The notes below the pieces were generated by a model. That model worked only from the letters and a program-made list of their open reading frames with translations, was not told the DNA's origin and did not search any database. DNA of 64,000 bases from Clostridioides sp. ES-S-0010-02 (GTDB taxonomy: Bacteria; Bacillota; Clostridia; Peptostreptococcales; Peptostreptococcaceae): the NCBI GenBank assembly GCA_020641055.1, contig CP067345.1, positions 1,295,317 through 1,359,316 on the forward strand. The letters are read 5' to 3'. Positions 39,177 through 55,620 of the stretch are shown piece by piece. The translations under genes were made by a program, and so were the position numbers. Each line of letters begins with the position of its first letter. Within the stretch, counting starts at the first letter, position 1.

Positions 39177-39226
39177 ATTAGTACATATGTATGAATTTAA
39201 GTAAATTTGAAATTGGAGGAATTACA

Positions 39227-40645
39227 GTGAAAAAGAAGATTGGATTTTGGGATTTAGTATTTATGAATATATCAGCATTATTTGGGATTAGATGGATAGC
39301 TAAATCTACTGCCTCTAGTTTTGGGTTGGGTCTTGGTTCGATACCAGTTTGGTTATTGTTTGCTTTTATATTCTTTGTTCCAGCATCACTTATATGTGCA
39401 GAGTTGGCTGCAACATATCCAAAAGATGGTGGACTTGGAGAATGGGTTAAACAGGCTTATGGAGAGAAGTGGGGATTTATGGTGTCATGGTTAAATTGGA
39501 CATCAAAGATATTTTGGTATTCCTCATTCTTGACATTCTTAGCTATAAATATTGCTTATATGCTTGGAAATCCAGCTCTATCAAACAATAAGATGTTTAT
39601 TTTAGTGCTTTCACTCATAATATTCTGGATGTTATCCTTAGTAAGTACTCGTGGAATGGCATTTGGAAAATTCTTTACAAATACAGGAGCATTAGGTTCT
39701 ACAATTCCTGCTATATTACTTATAGTGATGGCATTTATGTCTGTAGTTATTCTCAAAAAAGCTCCATCAGCATCTGTATATACAATCCAAAATATAATAC
39801 CAAAGATAGATGCTAATTCACTAGTTTCTATATCTGCTATAATATTTGCACTATCAGGAGCTGAAACAACTGCTAATTTCATAACCGAAATGGATAATGC
39901 TAAGAAAAACTTCCCTAAAGCTATATTGACAGTAGCTGTTTTAATAGGAGGAATCTATATCCTAGGTTCAGTAGCAATAACAATGATACTTCCTCCAGAT
40001 GAAATTGCAGCATCGACAGGAATACTAGATGCGCTAGCTAAAGTTGCACAAGATTTAGGAATAGGAAGCTGGTTTATAAGAGTAGTAGCATTTGGGATAA
40101 CTTTATCAGTACTTGGAGCACTAATACTTTATATAGCAGGTCCAGTAAAGATGCTTTTTGGCAATGTAAAAGAAGGTGTATTTCCTAAGCAATTAACTGT
40201 TACAAATAAACACAATATACCATCAAATGCTGTAGTAATTCAAGCTATAATAGTGAGTCTACTTCTTATAGGAACAAATTTACTGCCATCAGTAGATAAT
40301 ATATATAATGTCCTTGTAACTATGACAGCATTAACAGCCTTGTTTCCATATGTATTACTTTTTACGTCATATATAAGACTTAGAAAGACAAGACCAAACG
40401 AAGAAAGACCATACTCAATTGCAAAAAGTGATTCAGTTTGTATCAATATAGCCAGAATGGTACTTGTAGTGACTGTAGTAGGGATACTTTTCTCAACAGC
40501 ACCAGTTATGGAGACTTTAAAGGATAATATAGTCTATGAGATTGAAATGATAGGTGGAGGTCTTTTTGTTATAATAACAGGTTTAATGATATGGAAGAAC
40601 TATGAAAAGAAGGTATCTAATAATTCTGGAGATTCCTATAAATAA
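39227..40645 (+). CDS. APC-superfamily amino acid permease, copy 1
   Basis: A 472-residue transporter with about twelve membrane helices. The first helices include GFWDLVFMNISALFGIRWIA and SSFGLGLGSIPVWLLFAFIF; ATYPKDGGLGEWVKQAYGEK and ALSGAETTANFITEMDNAKK are typical of the glutamate:GABA antiporter/YjeM-like branch. Start choice: TTGGAGGA at 39213-39220 positions the GTG at 39227; an ATG at 39191 lacks a ribosome binding site. It lies 50 bases after the M24-fold gene, suggesting import of the product or substrate of that enzyme. The N-terminus is nearly duplicated by the gene starting at 63825. Confidence 0.9.
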   Translation: MKKKIGFWDLVFMNISALFGIRWIAKSTASSFGLGLGSIPVWLLFAFIFFVPASLICAELAATYPKDGGLGEWVKQAYGEKWGFMVSWLNWTSKIFWYSSFLTFLAINIAYMLGNPALSNNKMFILVLSLIIFWMLSLVSTRGMAFGKFFTNTGALGSTIPAILLIVMAFMSVVILKKAPSASVYTIQNIIPKIDANSLVSISAIIFALSGAETTANFITEMDNAKKNFPKAILTVAVLIGGIYILGSVAITMILPPDEIAASTGILDALAKVAQDLGIGSWFIRVVAFGITLSVLGALILYIAGPVKMLFGNVKEGVFPKQLTVTNKHNIPSNAVVIQAIIVSLLLIGTNLLPSVDNIYNVLVTMTALTALFPYVLLFTSYIRLRKTRPNEERPYSIAKSDSVCINIARMVLVVTVVGILFSTAPVMETLKDNIVYEIEMIGGGLFVIITGLMIWKNYEKKVSNNSGDSYK

Positions 40646-40656
40646 AAATATAATTA

Positions 40657-40696
40657 TTTTAGTGAACTAAAAGCGTATCTCTTTAGTTCACTAAAA
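40657..40696. repeat. 15-bp inverted repeat between permease and MFS genes
   Basis: Arms 40657-40671 and 40682-40696 are exact reverse complements. No clean T run follows on either strand, so terminator function is uncertain. Confidence 0.6.
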
Positions 40697-40807
40697 ATTA
40701 TGGATAAATTAACTTAACATATCAATAAATCTATAATATATTGAAATGTTAAAAAATCAATAATTAGTTGTCATAAAAATTTATGAGTATTTACATAAGG
40801 AGGAAAT

Positions 40808-42103
40808 ATGTCAGTTGAAGTGAATAAACCAAGCATTTGGAAAAATTTCAAAGTCTTGATAATACTCTTTGTAGCAGGAGCCTTTATATATGCTTTACCA
40901 TATTTAAAGAATTATTACTATGACACTTTTGCACAAGCATTTAATCTTACAAATACACAAATGGGGAGTTTAGGAAGCATTTATGGTCTACTTGCAATGG
41001 TATCATACCTTTTTGGTGGTTTCTTAGCAGACCGTATTTCAGCCAGAAAACTACTTTCAGGTTCTTTAATTATTACAGGGGTATCTGGTCTTGTATTAAC
41101 GCTTTATCCTCCATATATTGTTGTATTTTTAATCCATGCTTTATGGGGAATAACAACAATACTTACTTTTTGGCCAGCTCTTGTAAAAGCTGTCAGGATG
41201 TTAGCATCTGAAAATGAACAAGGAAAAGCTTTTGGATTTATGGAAAGTGGTCGTGGAATTACCAATGCAATTCATTTATCTATAGTCTTAATATTATTTG
41301 GATATATTTCATCAAAAGTAAGTGATAAATCTGGTCTTACAGCTATTATAGTACTGTATTCAGCTATAAATGTAATAGTTGGATTATTAGTATTTTTTAA
41401 GTTAAAAGATAATGAAAAAGAGGTATCAGCCAAATTTGATAAAGAAGCTTTCTTTACAGTAATAAAAATGCCTCATACATGGATAATAACAATAATAATG
41501 TTTTGCTCATATTCAGCTAATATGTCATTTTATTATTTTACGCCGTATTCAACTGAAGCATTTGGAGCTACTGTAGTATTTGCATCTGCAATATCAATAT
41601 TAGCTCAGTACTGTAGACCAGTAGCATCAGCTGCTTCTGGATTGCTTGGAGATAAAGTTGGTTCATCAAAGATTATATCTTATGGATTTATACTTATGAT
41701 TGCAGGACTTTTAGGTGTAATCTTTACACCAACGAAATCTTCTATGATTTATGTACTATTGATTGGATGTGTTGCAATATATGTATCTATGTATGCAATT
41801 CAAGGTTTACATTATTCATTACTTGAAGAAGGTAATTATTCACTATCAATATCAGGAACTGCTATAGGTATAGTTGCTACATTAGGATATCTTCCAGAAG
41901 TACTTTGTCCTCTAGCAGCAGGAAAGATATTAGATGCATTTCCAGGTGTAACTGGATATAAGTACTACTTCATTGTTCTTACTATAGTAGCCATAATTGG
42001 ATTGGTGTTTACATTTATATGGATGAATATGACTAAAGAAAGACGTAAAGAGCTTATTGAAATGAATAGTAAGTCAAATGAAAATACTACTAAAGTTAGT
42101 TAA
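40808..42103 (+). CDS. Major facilitator superfamily transporter
   Basis: A 431-residue MFS protein with about twelve helices. Features: NTQMGSLGSIYGLLAMVSYL, the loop-2 motif GGFLADRISARKLLSG (MFS motif A), WGITTILTFWPALVKAVRML, FMESGRGITNAIHLS and the second-half loop GLLGDKVGSSKII. The substrate is unknown; an organic acid or peptide-related compound is possible given the neighbours. AAGGAGG precedes the ATG. It lies 162 bases after the permease, with an inverted repeat between, so co-transcription is uncertain. Confidence 0.88.
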   Translation: MSVEVNKPSIWKNFKVLIILFVAGAFIYALPYLKNYYYDTFAQAFNLTNTQMGSLGSIYGLLAMVSYLFGGFLADRISARKLLSGSLIITGVSGLVLTLYPPYIVVFLIHALWGITTILTFWPALVKAVRMLASENEQGKAFGFMESGRGITNAIHLSIVLILFGYISSKVSDKSGLTAIIVLYSAINVIVGLLVFFKLKDNEKEVSAKFDKEAFFTVIKMPHTWIITIIMFCSYSANMSFYYFTPYSTEAFGATVVFASAISILAQYCRPVASAASGLLGDKVGSSKIISYGFILMIAGLLGVIFTPTKSSMIYVLLIGCVAIYVSMYAIQGLHYSLLEEGNYSLSISGTAIGIVATLGYLPEVLCPLAAGKILDAFPGVTGYKYYFIVLTIVAIIGLVFTFIWMNMTKERRKELIEMNSKSNENTTKVS

Positions 42104-42206: not shown

Positions 42207-42273
42207 ATTTTAAGAATATTAACCTCGAAATCTAAATATAATTTAATAAGATTAGATGTATAGGAGGAATAAT

Positions 42274-43749
42274 ATGAATAATAACATATACGAAGATATA
42301 TCCAAAAGGACTCAGGGGGATATATATATTGGAGTAGTGGGGCCTGTAAGAACAGGAAAATCAACTTTTATAAGAAAGTTTATGGAAAAGTTGGTTATCC
42401 CAAATATAGACAATGAGTTCAAAAAAGATAGAACAAGAGATGAGATACCTCAAAGTGGTTCAGGCAAAACTATAATGACAGTAGAGCCAAAATTTGTACC
42501 AGCAGATGGTGTAGAAATTAAAATAAAAGACACAGTATCTTTAAAAGTGAGAATGGTAGATTGTGTTGGATACATAGTTGAAGGAGCTTTAGGTCATGAG
42601 GAAGGTGGAAAGCAAAGATTAGTATCCACTCCTTGGTCACAAGAAGCTATGACATTTGAGAAAGCAGCAGAGATAGGGACTAAAAAAGTTATAAAAGACC
42701 ATTCTACAATAGGAATAGTTGTCTTGACAGATGGCTCAGTTACTGGTATTGATAGAAAAAGCTATGTAGAGCCAGAAGAGAGAGTTATACAAGAATTAAA
42801 AAATCTTAAAAAACCATTTGCTGTAGTTTTAAATACGTTAAGTCCTAGAAGTGAAGAAACAAGTCTGCTTAGAAATGAATTAGAGGAAAAATATGAAGTT
42901 CCAGTCCTTCCAATGAATATAGTTGAAATGGAAGATGAGGATATAGAAGAAGTTATGGAAACTGTACTATATGATTTCCCACTTACAGAAATAAGAATAA
43001 ACTTACCTAAATGGGTGGAAGGTCTTGAGAGAAATCACTGGATAAAAAGTAGTATAATAACAACATTAAAACAGAGCATTATAGATATAGGTAAAATAAG
43101 AGATATAGAAGGAATTATGCAAGGTTTCTCTGAGTTAGATTTTTTAGATGATACAGGTGTTGACCATGTAGAGTTAGGGGAAGGTGTCATAAACATTGAC
43201 TTACAAACAAAGCAAGATTTATTCTATAATGTCCTTGAAGAAAAAAGTGGATTTAAAATTGAAGGGGATTATCAATTACTTAGCCTGATAACTAGACTAT
43301 CTAAAGTTAAAAATGAGTATGATAAGATAGAAAGCGCTTTAATAGATGCTAAGATAAAAGGATATGGAGTAGTAGCCCCTTCTTTAGAAGAACTTAGCTT
43401 GGAAGAACCAGAAATAATGAAACAAGGAAAACAGTATGGTATTAAGTTAAAAGCTAATGCACCATCACTTCACATTATAAAAGCAGATATATCTACAGAA
43501 GTTTCTCCTATAGTTGGAAATCAAAATCAAGGTGAGGAGATGATAAAATATCTTATGGAGGTATTTGAAGAGCAACCAGCAGATTTATGGGAATCAAATA
43601 TGTTTGGGAAGTCACTTCATGATTTAGTAAAAGAACAGCTTCAAAGTAAATTGTATACTATGCCAGAGGAAATAAGAGTCAAGATGCAAAAGACTCTACA
43701 AAAAATTGTAAATGAAGGAAGTTCTAATATCATAACTATTTTGTTATAA
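42274..43749 (+). CDS. spoIVA: Spore coat basement ATPase SpoIVA
   Basis: Morphogenetic ATPase that polymerises on the forespore outer membrane and anchors the coat. Length (491 residues) matches the family. The N-terminus IYEDISKRTQGDIYIGVVGP continues into Walker A GPVRTGKSTFIRKF (about 24-37). The GTPase-like domain has VDCVGYIVEGALGHEEGGK, and the conserved C-terminal region (about 400-491) ends in NEGSSNIITILL. TAGGAGGA fits the ATG at 42274; the longer frame from 42256 reads through that site. Expected to be sigma-E controlled; I could not place the promoter firmly. A strong terminator follows. Confidence 0.97.
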   Translation: MNNNIYEDISKRTQGDIYIGVVGPVRTGKSTFIRKFMEKLVIPNIDNEFKKDRTRDEIPQSGSGKTIMTVEPKFVPADGVEIKIKDTVSLKVRMVDCVGYIVEGALGHEEGGKQRLVSTPWSQEAMTFEKAAEIGTKKVIKDHSTIGIVVLTDGSVTGIDRKSYVEPEERVIQELKNLKKPFAVVLNTLSPRSEETSLLRNELEEKYEVPVLPMNIVEMEDEDIEEVMETVLYDFPLTEIRINLPKWVEGLERNHWIKSSIITTLKQSIIDIGKIRDIEGIMQGFSELDFLDDTGVDHVELGEGVINIDLQTKQDLFYNVLEEKSGFKIEGDYQLLSLITRLSKVKNEYDKIESALIDAKIKGYGVVAPSLEELSLEEPEIMKQGKQYGIKLKANAPSLHIIKADISTEVSPIVGNQNQGEEMIKYLMEVFEEQPADLWESNMFGKSLHDLVKEQLQSKLYTMPEEIRVKMQKTLQKIVNEGSSNIITILL

Positions 43750-43755
43750 AAATAT

Positions 43756-43806
43756 AGCTACTTGTTAAAGTAAAATATTTGTTTACTTTAACAAGTAGCT
43801 TTTTAT
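43756..43806 (+). terminator. spoIVA terminator
   Basis: A perfect 19-bp stem (43756-43774 with 43782-43800), 7-nt loop, then TTTTATTTAT. Confidence 0.9.
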
Positions 43807-43931
43807 TTATAAAAATCAATAAAAGTTTTTATATAAATTGACAATAATTGATAATTGTGGAAAAATTATAATGAGTAAAGTATATTTTTAGACAAGGCTG
43901 TTTTAAGCTAAAAAAATTCTAGAGGTGTAGT

Positions 43932-45863
43932 ATGAGAAAGTATGAGATATTTATTTTTGTAAATATAATATTTTTATGTTTTATAAGTTTTCCACATAAA
44001 GTCTTTGGACAAGAGGATAATTGCCTTGAAGATTTTAAAATATGGTATCAAGAAAATAAAAACAATACTGGAGAGATGGTCTACACTCTTTCTTGTGATA
44101 TGGTGATAGATGAAGAATATAGGTTTTTCACTCCAGATGAAGCTAAACTCACAATAGATACTAATAAATATAAAATTTTAATAAAAGACCAAGGGAATTT
44201 TATAATTCAAGAAAATGAATTGAATATAGTAGGAGAGGGTGGAGAAGATGGAGTAATACATGTAGAAAAAGGAGGAAGATTAAATATAGGTATAGATAAT
44301 ATAATTGCTACCAACGGAACTGCTTTATATATTGAAGAAGGAGGTTATTTAAGATTTAGTTCATACTATGAAAGTATTGGAAATATAAGGGCAAATGGAA
44401 ATAATGCTATAGGAATTTATTCTGAAAATGACATTAGAGTGCCATATAAGGATATAGAGGTAAGAGGGAAAAATGCTGTAGGAGTATATTGTAAAGGTGA
44501 TATTGAGTTGGAAAGTACATCAGTAAGAGCTTATGATAATGACAACAAAACTAGATTATTAAGAAGTTCAGATAAAACTGTTAAATCAATTGTATCAAAA
44601 AGTAAAAATATTTATATAATTGATAGTTATAATGAGTTTATACCAGCCATATCTGAAGATTCTGGATATAATATTGTAAAATGTTGTCATAGGGGAATTA
44701 ATGTATTTAGTGAAGAAATAAAAGTAAGTAAAGATGATAAAATAGAAAATATAAAATTTCCCAAAGATATGATATTAGAAACATCTAGTAGTAATCAAAT
44801 AGATATAGATGTAGAATGGGATTTTACTGATTATTATGAAAAGCTAAAAAAAGAAGAAAATTTTAGTATAACAGGAAAGTTTAAAACAGAAACATTAAAT
44901 AAAGAAAAAATTATAATAAATGATGATGTTGTTCCTATTTTGAATATATCTGTTATAGAGAAAAAACCAATAGATAATTTGGAATTGGAATTTCAAAATA
45001 CAAGAAATGGATATGTAGCTGCTTTGTATTATGACATGCCATATAGTGCAAGTAAAGTTTTTGTTGAATATTCAAGTGACGGAATAAATTGGATATCTGA
45101 AGAACAGGAGGATATTAGAGACCAAGCTATACTTTTCTTTGAAGATTTTAAGCTGCGTTGTTTTAGAGTAAGAGTGGAAGGAGGATTAAAAGAAGGGTAT
45201 TCAAATATAGTTTTTAAACCAGGATTTATAACGGGAGGTGGCGATAGCCAAGAGACACCAGATGATGAACAGGAAAATGATGATATTGATGGAGACCGTG
45301 GTGGTGGCGGTAGAGATGACCCAGATAGAGAAGATTCTGAGATTATTGGAGATACAAATGACAATAATGAGAATGAAGCTATTGATAAGCAAAGACCTGA
45401 AGATTCTAATAAAGATACAGAATCTAATGATGAAGAAAAAGACAATAAACTTCAGCAAGATGAAAAAAATGATAAGTCAGATGAAAAAGATATTAAGACA
45501 GAGAATGAAACAAACAAAAACATTAATAATCAAGACAAAAACTTTAAAAGCAATGATTTAATCATGAAAAATAAAATTGAAAGTAGTTTAAAGGAAATAT
45601 TAACAGAAAGTCATAATGAAAATTATAAATCTCCTCAAAATACATTTAATGACGATAATGCCTTAAATCGAGAAGATACTTCTGAAGTAGGTAAGTTTAA
45701 TGATAAATTAGACTCTCCTTCTCAATCACAGAATAAAACTCAAAATTTTAATAGTGGAATTATCATTGGAATTGGAATTGTAGTTTTAAGCATGCTATGT
45801 TCAATAATAGCAGTAAATCCTGGTATCATAAAGTATATAAATAAATTTATAAAATTTAAATAG
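43932..45863 (+). CDS. Secreted, membrane-anchored beta-solenoid-like protein, copy 1 (unrecognised family)
   Basis: I do not recognise a characterised family. The 643-residue protein has a signal peptide (about 1-26, ending FGQEDN). A region of beta-solenoid-like rungs (about 90-205) follows, with repeated segments such as NGTALYIEEGGYLRF, NNAIGIYSENDIRV and KNAVGVYCKGDIEL. A further domain (about 340-430) carries VEYSSDGINW and FKLRCFRVRVEGGLKEGYSN. A Gly/Arg/Asp motif GDRGGGGRDDPDRED opens a long acidic, Asn/Lys-rich disordered linker (about 435-605). One C-terminal membrane helix (about 609-630) is followed by a short basic tail. The topology is type I, with the bulk outside the cell or between forespore membranes. 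AGAGGTG precedes the ATG. The position after spoIVA hints at a spore-envelope role. Confidence 0.8.
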   Translation: MRKYEIFIFVNIIFLCFISFPHKVFGQEDNCLEDFKIWYQENKNNTGEMVYTLSCDMVIDEEYRFFTPDEAKLTIDTNKYKILIKDQGNFIIQENELNIVGEGGEDGVIHVEKGGRLNIGIDNIIATNGTALYIEEGGYLRFSSYYESIGNIRANGNNAIGIYSENDIRVPYKDIEVRGKNAVGVYCKGDIELESTSVRAYDNDNKTRLLRSSDKTVKSIVSKSKNIYIIDSYNEFIPAISEDSGYNIVKCCHRGINVFSEEIKVSKDDKIENIKFPKDMILETSSSNQIDIDVEWDFTDYYEKLKKEENFSITGKFKTETLNKEKIIINDDVVPILNISVIEKKPIDNLELEFQNTRNGYVAALYYDMPYSASKVFVEYSSDGINWISEEQEDIRDQAILFFEDFKLRCFRVRVEGGLKEGYSNIVFKPGFITGGGDSQETPDDEQENDDIDGDRGGGGRDDPDREDSEIIGDTNDNNENEAIDKQRPEDSNKDTESNDEEKDNKLQQDEKNDKSDEKDIKTENETNKNINNQDKNFKSNDLIMKNKIESSLKEILTESHNENYKSPQNTFNDDNALNREDTSEVGKFNDKLDSPSQSQNKTQNFNSGIIIGIGIVVLSMLCSIIAVNPGIIKYINKFIKFK

Positions 45864-45872
45864 TAAAATAAG

Positions 45873-45904
45873 TAAAATTGTTTAAAATAACTCAATTTTA
45901 TTTG
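45873..45904 (+). terminator. Weak hairpin between the paralogous surface genes
   Basis: An 8-bp A/T-rich stem (45873-45880 with 45893-45900) followed by TTTG. It may be only a partial terminator. Confidence 0.35.
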
Positions 45905-45929
45905 ATAAGAGAATTAGTAGGAGAAAAAT

Positions 45930-47912
45930 ATGAGCAAAACAAACAAAGCTTTTATTCTTATAAATTTGTTAATTATGATTTTTGCACTTTTCCCAAATAA
46001 GAGTTTTTCCCAAGAAAATAATTGTCTGAATGATTTTAAAAGTTGGATTTTGAAAAATGAATATAATAATAAAAAAATAGTTTACACTCTTTCTTGTGAT
46101 ATGGTAATAGATGGTTATTTTGAACTTAGTATTCCATATGGAACTAAGATTACAATAGATACCAATAAGTATAAAATACTCATAAAAGATAAAGGGAACT
46201 TTTTTATCAATGGGAATGAATTAAATATAATTGGAGAAGGTGAAACAGACGGTGTAATTCATGTAGAACGAGGAGGAAAGCTAAGGATAGGGATAGATAA
46301 TATAACTGCTTTAAATGGAACTGCTTTGTATGCAGAAGAAGAAGCTGATTTAATTATAGATACATATTATGGTGAGGTTGGAAACATAAAAGCAAGTGGA
46401 GAAAACGCTATAGGAATTTATTCGGAAAATAATGTTAGAGTAGACTGTAAAACGATTGAAGTTGATGGAGAAAATGCTATAGGAATTTATTCTAAGGGAG
46501 AAGTCGAAATAGAGGATACTTCAGTAATTGTCAATGATGATAATAAACAGCAAAGTTTAGGGTTAAGAAGTAACAATAAAAAAGGACAGTCAATTGTATC
46601 AGAGATCAAGAATGTCTATATTATAGGAGAGCAAAATACAATAATGCCAGATATACCTCAAGATGATGATTATAATATTATAAGGTGTAATTGCAGAGGT
46701 ATTGGAGTCTTTGAAGAGGAAATAATGATAACAAAAGAAGATAAAATAGAAGATTTAAAATTTCCTCAAACTGTAACTTTAAAAACTTCTAGTGGAAAGT
46801 TTAAAAGGTTAGATGTGGACTGGGATTTATCAAATTACTATACTGATTTAAATAAAAATGCAGAGTTCGTGATAAAAGGAAAATTTAAAGAAGAATATCT
46901 AAATGAAAATAATATAGTGCTAAATCATAATGTTGCGCCTATTTTATATGTTCATGTTACAAATAAAGGACCTATAAACGATTTAGAAGTATCTTTTATA
47001 AACTCAAAAAAGGGTTATTCAGCTATTTTAGATTACAGTATGCCATATAATGCCAAGAAGGTATTTGTAGAATATTCTGATGATGGTATAAATTGGGTAA
47101 GCAAAGAATTAAATTATATTAGTAACCAAACTATACTTGATTTTGAAGATTTTAAATTGAGATGTTTTAGAGTAAATGTAGAAGGTGGATTAAGGGACGG
47201 ATATTCAAATATATTTTTAAAACCAGGATTTGTGATGGGTGGAGGCAATGGTCAGATGACACCAGAAGATGACCGAGACGTTATTATAGATGGAGGTGAT
47301 CGTGGAGGTGGTGGTAGAGATGACCCAGATAGAGATGGCAGTAGTGAAAATGAGGGTAATAACAATAAAAATAAAGAAGAAGATAATAATGAAAATAAAG
47401 AAAATACTGACAATGGTAGTAATGAAAATAATGATTCTAATGGAGGAAAACCAAATGATTCAGAAGATAACATAGGACCAAGTGCTGGTGGTGTCGATAA
47501 TAAAAATCATCAAAATAATAAAGAAAATACTGATATAAATGCTGATAAAGAAAATGATTATGAGTATAAAAATAAATTTAATAGTAAAAATTTAATGATA
47601 GAAGATGATAGCAATTGTAATTTAAAACAGAAATCAGTATTTAGCAATAATAATCAATATTTCTCTTATGGAGAGGCTTTTGTAAACGGAAATAAAGAAA
47701 TAAACAATGAAAAATCAGGAGTAAATAATTATGATGAAATAGCAAATGACAATGAGAATCTTAAATCTATATTTAAAAAATATAATTTAAATAGAGAGAT
47801 TTTCTTTTTACTTTGTATATTAACTCCAACTATGATTGTTTCTATATTAGCTGTAAATCCAAGTGTAAGAAAAAATGTAATAGAATTCATACAAATAAAA
47901 AATAATTTTTAA
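45930..47912 (+). CDS. Secreted, membrane-anchored beta-solenoid-like protein, copy 2 (unrecognised family)
   Basis: A 660-residue paralogue of the preceding gene with the same order. Signal peptide (about 1-27, FSQENN), then VYTLSCDMVIDGYF, solenoid-like rungs (NGTALYAEEEADLII, ENAIGIYSENNVRV, ENAIGIYSKGEVEI) and the domain with VEYSDDGINW and FKLRCFRVNVEGGLRDGYSN. Next come GDRGGGGRDDPDRDG, a longer acidic linker rich in Asn, Glu and Lys (about 455-615), a C-terminal membrane helix (about 630-650) and a basic tail. The folded part and the Gly/Arg/Asp motif are conserved between copies while the linkers have diverged. The cysteines in NCLNDF, LSCDM, CNC and RCF are mostly matched in copy 1 and may form disulfides. 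AGGAGA precedes the ATG; a terminator follows. Confidence 0.8.
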   Translation: MSKTNKAFILINLLIMIFALFPNKSFSQENNCLNDFKSWILKNEYNNKKIVYTLSCDMVIDGYFELSIPYGTKITIDTNKYKILIKDKGNFFINGNELNIIGEGETDGVIHVERGGKLRIGIDNITALNGTALYAEEEADLIIDTYYGEVGNIKASGENAIGIYSENNVRVDCKTIEVDGENAIGIYSKGEVEIEDTSVIVNDDNKQQSLGLRSNNKKGQSIVSEIKNVYIIGEQNTIMPDIPQDDDYNIIRCNCRGIGVFEEEIMITKEDKIEDLKFPQTVTLKTSSGKFKRLDVDWDLSNYYTDLNKNAEFVIKGKFKEEYLNENNIVLNHNVAPILYVHVTNKGPINDLEVSFINSKKGYSAILDYSMPYNAKKVFVEYSDDGINWVSKELNYISNQTILDFEDFKLRCFRVNVEGGLRDGYSNIFLKPGFVMGGGNGQMTPEDDRDVIIDGGDRGGGGRDDPDRDGSSENEGNNNKNKEEDNNENKENTDNGSNENNDSNGGKPNDSEDNIGPSAGGVDNKNHQNNKENTDINADKENDYEYKNKFNSKNLMIEDDSNCNLKQKSVFSNNNQYFSYGEAFVNGNKEINNEKSGVNNYDEIANDNENLKSIFKKYNLNREIFFLLCILTPTMIVSILAVNPSVRKNVIEFIQIKNNF

Positions 47913-55342: not shown

Positions 55343-55368
55343 TTCATATAAACACAGATAAATTTTTA

Positions 55369-55620
55369 AAAGCGTTGATAGAGACAATTATCTTTAGATA
55401 ATTTTACAGAGAATTGGGTATGCTGAGAACCAAGGAATTTATAAAGATGAGAATCACTCTTGAGCTGCAGGCTGAACGATTAAACTTTATTAAGCTGTGC
55501 CGGTTAGTGCCGTTATACTATTAGAGTGTTATATGTGACTATTGTTAAGTTCACATATAGAATTAGGGTGGTAACGCGATTGATAACTCGTCCCTTTGTT
55601 TAAAGGGGACGAGTTTTTTA
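55369..55620 (+). promoter_or_regulatory. T-box riboswitch (isoleucine) with terminator, upstream of ileS
   Basis: The leader has the T-box sequence AGGGTGGTAACGCG at 55565-55578, whose bulge pairs with the tRNA acceptor end, and a terminator helix from AACTCGTCCCTT (55585) to AAGGGGACGAGTT followed by T6. In Stem I the segment GAGAATCACTC near 55450-55460 offers AUC as specifier codon, matching isoleucine and the downstream gene. Uncharged tRNA-Ile should stabilise the antiterminator. Confidence 0.92.

Follow-up and report, generated by a model that had tools for sequence, protein, structure and literature searches.

The window analysed here, a 64,000-nucleotide stretch of Clostridioides sp. 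ES-S-0010-02 (contig CP067345.1, positions 1,295,317 to 1,359,316), carries on its forward strand a tandem pair of related surface-protein genes that are considered below as candidate partners of CmrR/CmrS, a two-component system whose genes lie at another site of the same genome. The first gene of the array, here called ORF1 (open reading frame 1; 43932..45863, + strand), encodes a secreted, membrane-anchored beta-helix/Ig/Fn3 protein of 643 residues, and the second, ORF2 (45930..47912, + strand), a 660-residue paralogue with 47% identity to ORF1 over the full alignment and 58% over the head. The initial annotation had recognized the tandem pair correctly; its count of two copies holds for the window and not for the genus, in which copy number ranges from 0 to 3. 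In the following, G000 denotes the window's own genome, other G-numbers denote compared genomes, and L-numbers denote stretches around loci.

The two proteins share a layout in which a signal peptide is followed by a right-handed beta-helix, a Big_4 Ig domain, an Fn3-like domain, the invariant GDRGGGGRDDPDR junction, a disordered stalk and a membrane anchor at the C-terminus. Structure models, which are predictions based on eight sequences, place the right-handed parallel beta-helix of ORF2 at residues ~28-245 (46011..46664, +), with a variable loop at residues ~199-222 in which 1 of 24 columns is invariant, and the predicted model of the head aligns over most of the domain with this fold. The Big_4 domain of ORF2 follows at residues 274-318 (46749..46883, +), where the Pfam profile PF07532 scores 23.6 bits against a cut-off of 22.1. 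Six of the eight heads matched this profile at E <= 1, and no match was reported for ORF1 at E <= 10. The Fn3-like domain (ORF2 residues ~346-433; 46965..47228, +) contains the invariant run FEDFKLRCFR and precedes the junction motif at residues 456-468 (47295..47333, +; ORF1 copy at 45291..45329, +), which is the longest invariant run of the eight-copy alignment and lies, in ORF2, in a stretch with a predicted local distance difference test score (pLDDT) below 50. A disordered, acidic and Asn-rich stalk (ORF2, 47334..47774, +) leads to a C-terminal membrane segment and basic tail (47793..47867, + in ORF2; 45744..45839, + in ORF1). The earlier picture of a displayed beta-solenoid head on a flexible stalk with a membrane anchor is thus borne out by the predicted beta-helix, the disordered stalk and the C-terminal membrane segment. 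The sortase sorting signal of Clostridioides difficile is (S/P)PxTG, and no PxTG occurs anywhere in ORF1 or ORF2; likewise, neither protein has a CWB2 domain or sortase match in Pfam at E <= 10, or a lipobox of the form [LVI][ASTVI][GAS]C within the first 45 residues. Because these motifs and domains are missing, the proteins are not classed as sortase-anchored, CWB2 cell-wall or lipoproteins.

The head shares its fold with pectate lyases, tailspikes and autotransporter passengers, and polysaccharide lyases, esterases and tailspikes make up many of its top structural matches, as would be expected of a polysaccharide-degrading enzyme of the pectate or alginate lyase type. Such an activity is nonetheless very improbable: the helix residues invariant in distant members are mostly Gly, Ala, Pro or hydrophobic, the only acidic ones being D30 and E109 (head numbering), and none of the enzyme families in Pfam or NCBIfam scored as high as its curated cut-off. 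The proteins also differ from the known beta-helix proteins in their low identity (7-18% in aligned rows), in having no catalytic signature that could be seen, and in their additional Ig, Fn3, stalk and anchor parts. DUF7305 (PF23981) matched all eight heads weakly (best E 0.0014), with 16.6 bits for the ORF2 head and 15.6 bits for that of ORF1 against a Pfam cut-off of 27, and single-member Pfam matches to Gasdermin (1/8, E 0.001) and DUF2947 (1/8, E 0.0038) were set aside as chance. NCBIfam returned six chance-level matches for ORF1 (best E 0.77) and zero for ORF2, and the best PHROGs match had an E of 0.051. Among solved structures, phmmer detected no relatives, and the profile gave only two MotA chains (E 0.44). 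A phage or mobile origin was rejected, with no match in 50,697 phage records; none of the 17 stretches of viral contigs that matched the pattern encodes a relative, and BFVD yielded a single viral match at E <= 0.001, to a minor tail protein of a phage, with a query TM-score of 0.16.

Homologues in other clostridia place the family beside relatives of CmrR and CmrS. Of 391 genomes of the class, 12 were matched at E <= 0.01 by a profile built from the eight heads, with the whole architecture in G000, G759 and G461 alone. The latter two belong to other families and have the same anchor; their junction motifs read GTRGGGGRIEPDR and GGNRGGGTDILEPD. At the level of orders, whole-architecture homologues were matched in four of 67 genomes of one order (G759, G794, G795 and G796), while in a second order 4 of 200 genomes matched, with the whole architecture in G461 alone. 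These genome searches score few candidates per genome at first look, so that absence from them is not proof. In all five non-Clostridioides genomes with a whole-architecture homologue, the gene sits in antisense orientation with a CmrR homologue (55-56% identical to CmrR in G759 and G794-G796, 41% in G461) on one side and a CmrS homologue (46-48 and 33% identical to CmrS, respectively) on the other. The G759 locus (L059) consists of an OmpR-family regulator, the antisense homologue and a seven-transmembrane (7TM) sensor kinase, the last with HisKA and HATPase_c domains and a 7TMR-DISM_7TM match (E 5e-6) that does not reach the Pfam cut-off. Homologue and kinase have their start codons 38 bp from each other, and 17 bp separate the convergent stops; the arrangement is mirrored in G461 (L060; 36 and 17 bp), and the same triad is found in three further members of the genus of G759. 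In a noncontiguous operon, an opposite-strand gene lies inside a same-direction pair. L059 and L060 resemble this arrangement in gene order, with an antisense gene and a near lack of intergenic room, and the Clostridioides gene differs in sitting outside the cmr cluster.

The kinases have a corresponding distribution. Within the class sample, kinases scoring at least 690 bits occur in G000, G759 and G461, the same three genomes that encode whole-architecture homologues, and the next kinase scores 164; these three genomes supply rows of the kinase profile and are also its top three matches. A search of 31 kinase loci found a family member within ~1.5 kb on each side only in L116 (G759) and L117 (G461). 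The GxRGGG junction is absent from the loci of the nine other class matches and of G877, G937 and G967. Three of these twelve loci (L047, L050 and L069) match the Fn3-like segment, and the other nine have no match to the wider profile. The L047, L050 and L069 proteins share this segment of the heads (DG..W ... G.SN) without the remainder, and those of L047 and L050 look like repeat-rich BspA-type proteins. A second module of G796 (L076:3402-7956) encodes, in overlapping reading frames on the same strand, a LytTR-type regulator, a solenoid-like membrane protein of 646 residues and a 7TM kinase of GHKL type, the LytTR and GHKL assignments being read from the sequence rather than from a profile scan. 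The 646-residue protein is taken as a distant relative on an E of 6.6e-5, 31% identity over 89 residues and a shared layout, and the module suggests that the pairing of a solenoid protein with a 7TM kinase is broader than CmrRS.

Used as a single query, the G759 kinase had one match in G000 (44% identity over the sensor region, E 5e-135, at 579788-581104). The corresponding CmrR/CmrS locus lies at about 579029-581800 of G000:C1, ~0.76 Mb from ORF1/ORF2; the regulator preceding the kinase is 56% identical to that of G759, and the kinase is followed by a second regulator and then the pst operon. In C. difficile strain 630, CD3267 and CD3265 are response regulators, with CD3267 under a class II cyclic di-GMP (c-di-GMP) riboswitch (PMC6143707, PMC8428550, PMC6200980), and CD3266 appears in a list of sensor kinases and response regulators (PMC3408451). 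In R20291, cmrRST corresponds to the operon 3128-3126 (PMC12548384; PMC12694794 Table 1), and CD3267-CD3265 are mapped to it here by gene order and riboswitch. The co-varying kinase and regulator correspond to CmrS and CmrR in the order cmrR-cmrS-cmrT, in the c-di-GMP-II riboswitch before the G000 cmr operon (L072 6369-6452) and in the exact CmrR box before the orthologue of the array. A 31-nt inverted repeat pair, 81% complementary and 209 bp apart, lies between riboswitch and cmrR (L072:6565-6835) and is likely the invertible cmr switch of G000, in keeping with the published switch. CmrRST switches colony forms in C. difficile and has been connected with motility, with biofilm and, in an animal model, with disease; CmrT is the main effector, CmrR autoregulates cmrRST and is possibly strictly autoregulatory, and the signal of CmrS is stated to be unknown (PMC12694794). 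Unlike the proposal made here, the CmrRST model, as set out in the published passages (PMC12548384, PMC12694794), was found to contain no extracytoplasmic partner.

Within Clostridioides, compared in eight genomes with one per species, the surface genes and cmrR/cmrS are present or lost together. Across 71 genomes of the family, CmrS scored above 860 bits in six, exactly the six Clostridioides with surface genes, and G034 and G064 gave only 23-27% matches. All six gene-bearing genomes have cmrR and cmrS at 86-100% identity, and both gene-less genomes, G006 and G010, have remnants, so that all eight are concordant. The remnants in G006 cover CmrR 1-116 in two frames and CmrS 412-489 and 581-675, and those in G010 cover CmrR 35-120 and 162-178 and CmrS 480-523 and 611-674; they are not nested, and at least the later deletions therefore differ. 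cmrT (93-94%) and pstC (96-97%) are full-length in both, at L093 in G006 (cmrT at 1471-2157) and L094 in G010, and pstS of G006 falls beyond the available contig end. The retention of cmrT where cmrR and cmrS decayed fits the published view of CmrT as a likely phosphorylation-independent pseudoreceiver. The c-di-GMP-II riboswitch survives in G010, and in G006 its expected place is past the contig end. G006 has a c-di-GMP-I riboswitch between cmrT and pstC (L093:3773-3869), in a gap longer than in other genomes, and none was reported in the other pst-locus stretches searched. A tree of nine genes (8178 columns, some taxa partly missing) gave ((G006,G004)92,G010)100 and rejected a sisterhood of G006 and G010 (log-likelihood difference 18.7; approximately unbiased test, p = 0.008). 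Because G006 and G010 are separated in this tree, two independent co-losses are indicated of loci that lie 0.76 Mb apart in G000, which is the main finding of the comparison.

The array itself is variable. G005 and G007 have three copies, G000 and G008 two, and G004 one, and scars alone remain where the array would sit in G006 and G010; G009, counted as gene-bearing, has partial genes at two contig ends. The single gene of G004 (L019:6420-8390) is a hybrid of a gene-1 head and the last-gene tail of arrays, and its head is in part 96-97% identical to gene 1 of G007 and in part 92-93% identical to gene 1 of G000, in blocks where G008 reaches 72-83%. Since the gene is a hybrid with identity blocks of differing origin, there is, judging from these sequences, recombination between array copies and across species.

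The array follows spoIVA (42256..43749, +), and from this position the initial annotation had suggested spore- or mother-cell-surface biology. The sigma regulon paper places CD2629 spoIVA under sigma-E, and its main text, in the passages available, does not include CD2628 (PMC3789822), which tag order and coordinates in published passages indicate to be the strain 630 orthologue. That ORF1 and ORF2 belong to the sigma-E/K programme, as proteins of the spore coat or the mother-cell surface, is the least probable of the readings considered. A terminator-like hairpin with a T-run, read from the sequence (43756..43806, +), and a putative ORF1 promoter (TTGACA, 17 bp, AAAAAT, with TG just upstream; 43838..43866, +) separate the genes from spoIVA, and the TTGACA is kept in all six gene-bearing Clostridioides genomes and in neither of the two that lost the genes. 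spoIVA is full-length in all eight genomes, array present or not, including G006 and G010, and the homologues in other clostridia belong to a two-component locus, between response regulator and sensor kinase. Given the intervening hairpin and separate promoter, and the two congeners that keep spoIVA without the array, the placement looks incidental, and the spore reading was not sustained. No riboswitch was found upstream of ORF1; the sole Rfam match in the window is a T-box leader (RF00230) at 55366-55598, with 120.7 bits. On the other side of spoIVA, an amino acid permease and an MFS transporter gene (APC/MFS pair; window 39191-42103) occur in six Clostridioides genomes, and in G005 and G009, plsY-gpsA precede spoIVA instead.

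The putative promoter contains, within its -35/-10 spacer, an exact CmrR-box 18-mer (ACAATAATTGATAATTGT; 43841..43858, no strand assigned). R20291 has 12 exact copies of the CmrR box (ACAATNNNNNNNNATTGT), one of them 75 bp upstream of CDR20291_2512, a 'putative exported protein', and CmrR gave weak shifts in electrophoretic mobility shift assays (EMSA), including upstream of this gene (PMC12548384). CDR20291_2512 is taken as the orthologue because spoIVA is CDR20291_2513 (PMC5864091) and the identical 18-mer precedes gene 1 in G000 and G004. These findings would suit surface effectors, such as an adhesin or aggregation factor, that are controlled by CmrR and were lost with CmrR/CmrS as useless without them. 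The displayed head is in agreement with such an output, as are the c-di-GMP-II riboswitch preceding the G000 cmr operon and the presumed over-production of CD3267 in biofilms (PMC6143707). An output role is possible but unlikely on present evidence. CDR2512 is not among the genes of the CmrR/CmrT overexpression table (main text, Table 1, cut-off log2 fold change of 2; PMC12694794) and so is not an evident output at that cut-off. The 18-mer is exact in only two of the eight Clostridioides genomes, has 1-2 mismatches in the other four of the six gene-bearing genomes and one mismatch in each gene-less genome. In G759, neither the stretch before the regulator nor the gap between the solenoid and kinase genes has a box with fewer than three mismatches. 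As the box is degenerate in genomes with and without CmrR, its conservation does not follow that of CmrR, and the idea of a CmrR operator decaying along with CmrR was dropped when the eight-genome table showed that the box does not discriminate.

Genome-wide box counts against a reversed-pattern control were 17 v 7 in G000, 12 v 8 in G004, 17 v 6 in G005, 14 v 9 in G006, 19 v 12 in G007, 12 v 10 in G008, 11 v 12 in G009 and 7 v 9 in G010, so that G006 shows an excess without CmrR. Among the site lists of G004 to G008 and a small part of that of G009, the list of G004 comes closest to R20291, with 10 of the 12 published sites recurring. The autoregulatory box of cmrR (L072:6870-6887) is mismatched in G000 and G004 relative to the R20291 18-mer, with one mismatch per half-site. 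The literature search found no paper giving this protein a function or linking it to CmrS (subscription papers and supplements were outside its scope). The initial annotation's 'undescribed' thus stands for function as far as searched, and not for the gene itself, whose orthologue is already named and known to have a CmrR box upstream (PMC12548384).

The combined data suggest that the ORF1/ORF2 family is an evolutionary partner of the CmrR/CmrS two-component system, and a functional link between the two is very probable. Several points weigh against a direct partnership. Only two losses are known, and the nine-gene tree is a tree of the pst and spoIVA regions, since all nine genes come from them. 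CmrT survives in G006 and G010, and the lost part is thus the CmrR/CmrS branch. Divergence is faster in the heads than in the kinase (between G000 and G008, 80% identity for ORF2 against 97% for CmrS), and the exact box overlapping the promoter in G000 and G004 points to CmrR regulation, as output or feedback. Shared ecology rather than contact could also have driven the co-loss, with the proteins being independent members of the same lifestyle as CmrRS and the gene order elsewhere an old accident; the mosaic array of variable copy number is of a kind often seen for dispensable surface genes. This explanation is improbable in view of the tightly spaced triad, which recurs in two families, the distant relative that is co-operonic with another 7TM kinase in G796, and the APC/MFS pair, which served as a control and shows a different loss pattern, being missing at the spoIVA site in G005 and G009 only.

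Within the proposed partnership, a role of ORF1 and ORF2 as accessory receptor or co-sensor on the input side of CmrS is the favoured assignment, held with modest confidence. It is preferred because of the embedded gene order, the overlapping operon of G796, the invariant junction, the loss with CmrR/CmrS and not CmrT, the absence from the regulon table, and the published autoregulatory CmrR and unknown CmrS signal. The sequences show the architecture, the triad conserved in other clostridial families and the recurrent co-loss; that the proteins touch CmrS, bind a ligand and act as input rather than output is what we infer. The beta-helix head would capture an extracellular ligand, for which a glycan is the obvious guess, and the conserved Fn3-like domain and GDRGGGGRDDPDR linker would present it to, or dock on, the ectodomain or 7TM part of CmrS at the membrane. 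Either would set the kinase activity of CmrS toward CmrR. In LuxP/LuxQ and ChvE/VirA, a separate extracytoplasmic protein passes a ligand signal to a membrane kinase, and the likeness to the role proposed here is one of function, without shown homology: LuxP and ChvE are soluble periplasmic binding proteins of Gram-negative bacteria, whereas the present case would involve a membrane-anchored beta-helix/Ig/Fn3 protein and a 7TM kinase in a Gram-positive organism. A more far-reaching and tentative possibility is a plug-in receptor array, in which a conserved CmrS would be served by one to three fast-diverging, recombining stalked beta-helix receptors docked via the invariant GDRGGGGRDDPDR linker, and changes in copy number along with mosaic exchange in the array at spoIVA would re-tune the input of a phase-variable, c-di-GMP-controlled system. 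Other clostridia would encode the equivalent as a locus of response regulator, antisense receptor and 7TM kinase, with a second version built on LytTR/GHKL-type signalling, and together these would form a new three-part sensory class.

The analysis takes two 'hypothetical' surface proteins away from spore biology and offers, in an evolutionary partner encoded 0.76 Mb away, a concrete candidate for the missing input of CmrS. ORF1 and ORF2 may be the missing part of the CmrS sensor, and the repeated occurrence of the arrangement suggests a design, recurrent among clostridia, that pairs a 7TM kinase with a beta-helix surface protein.

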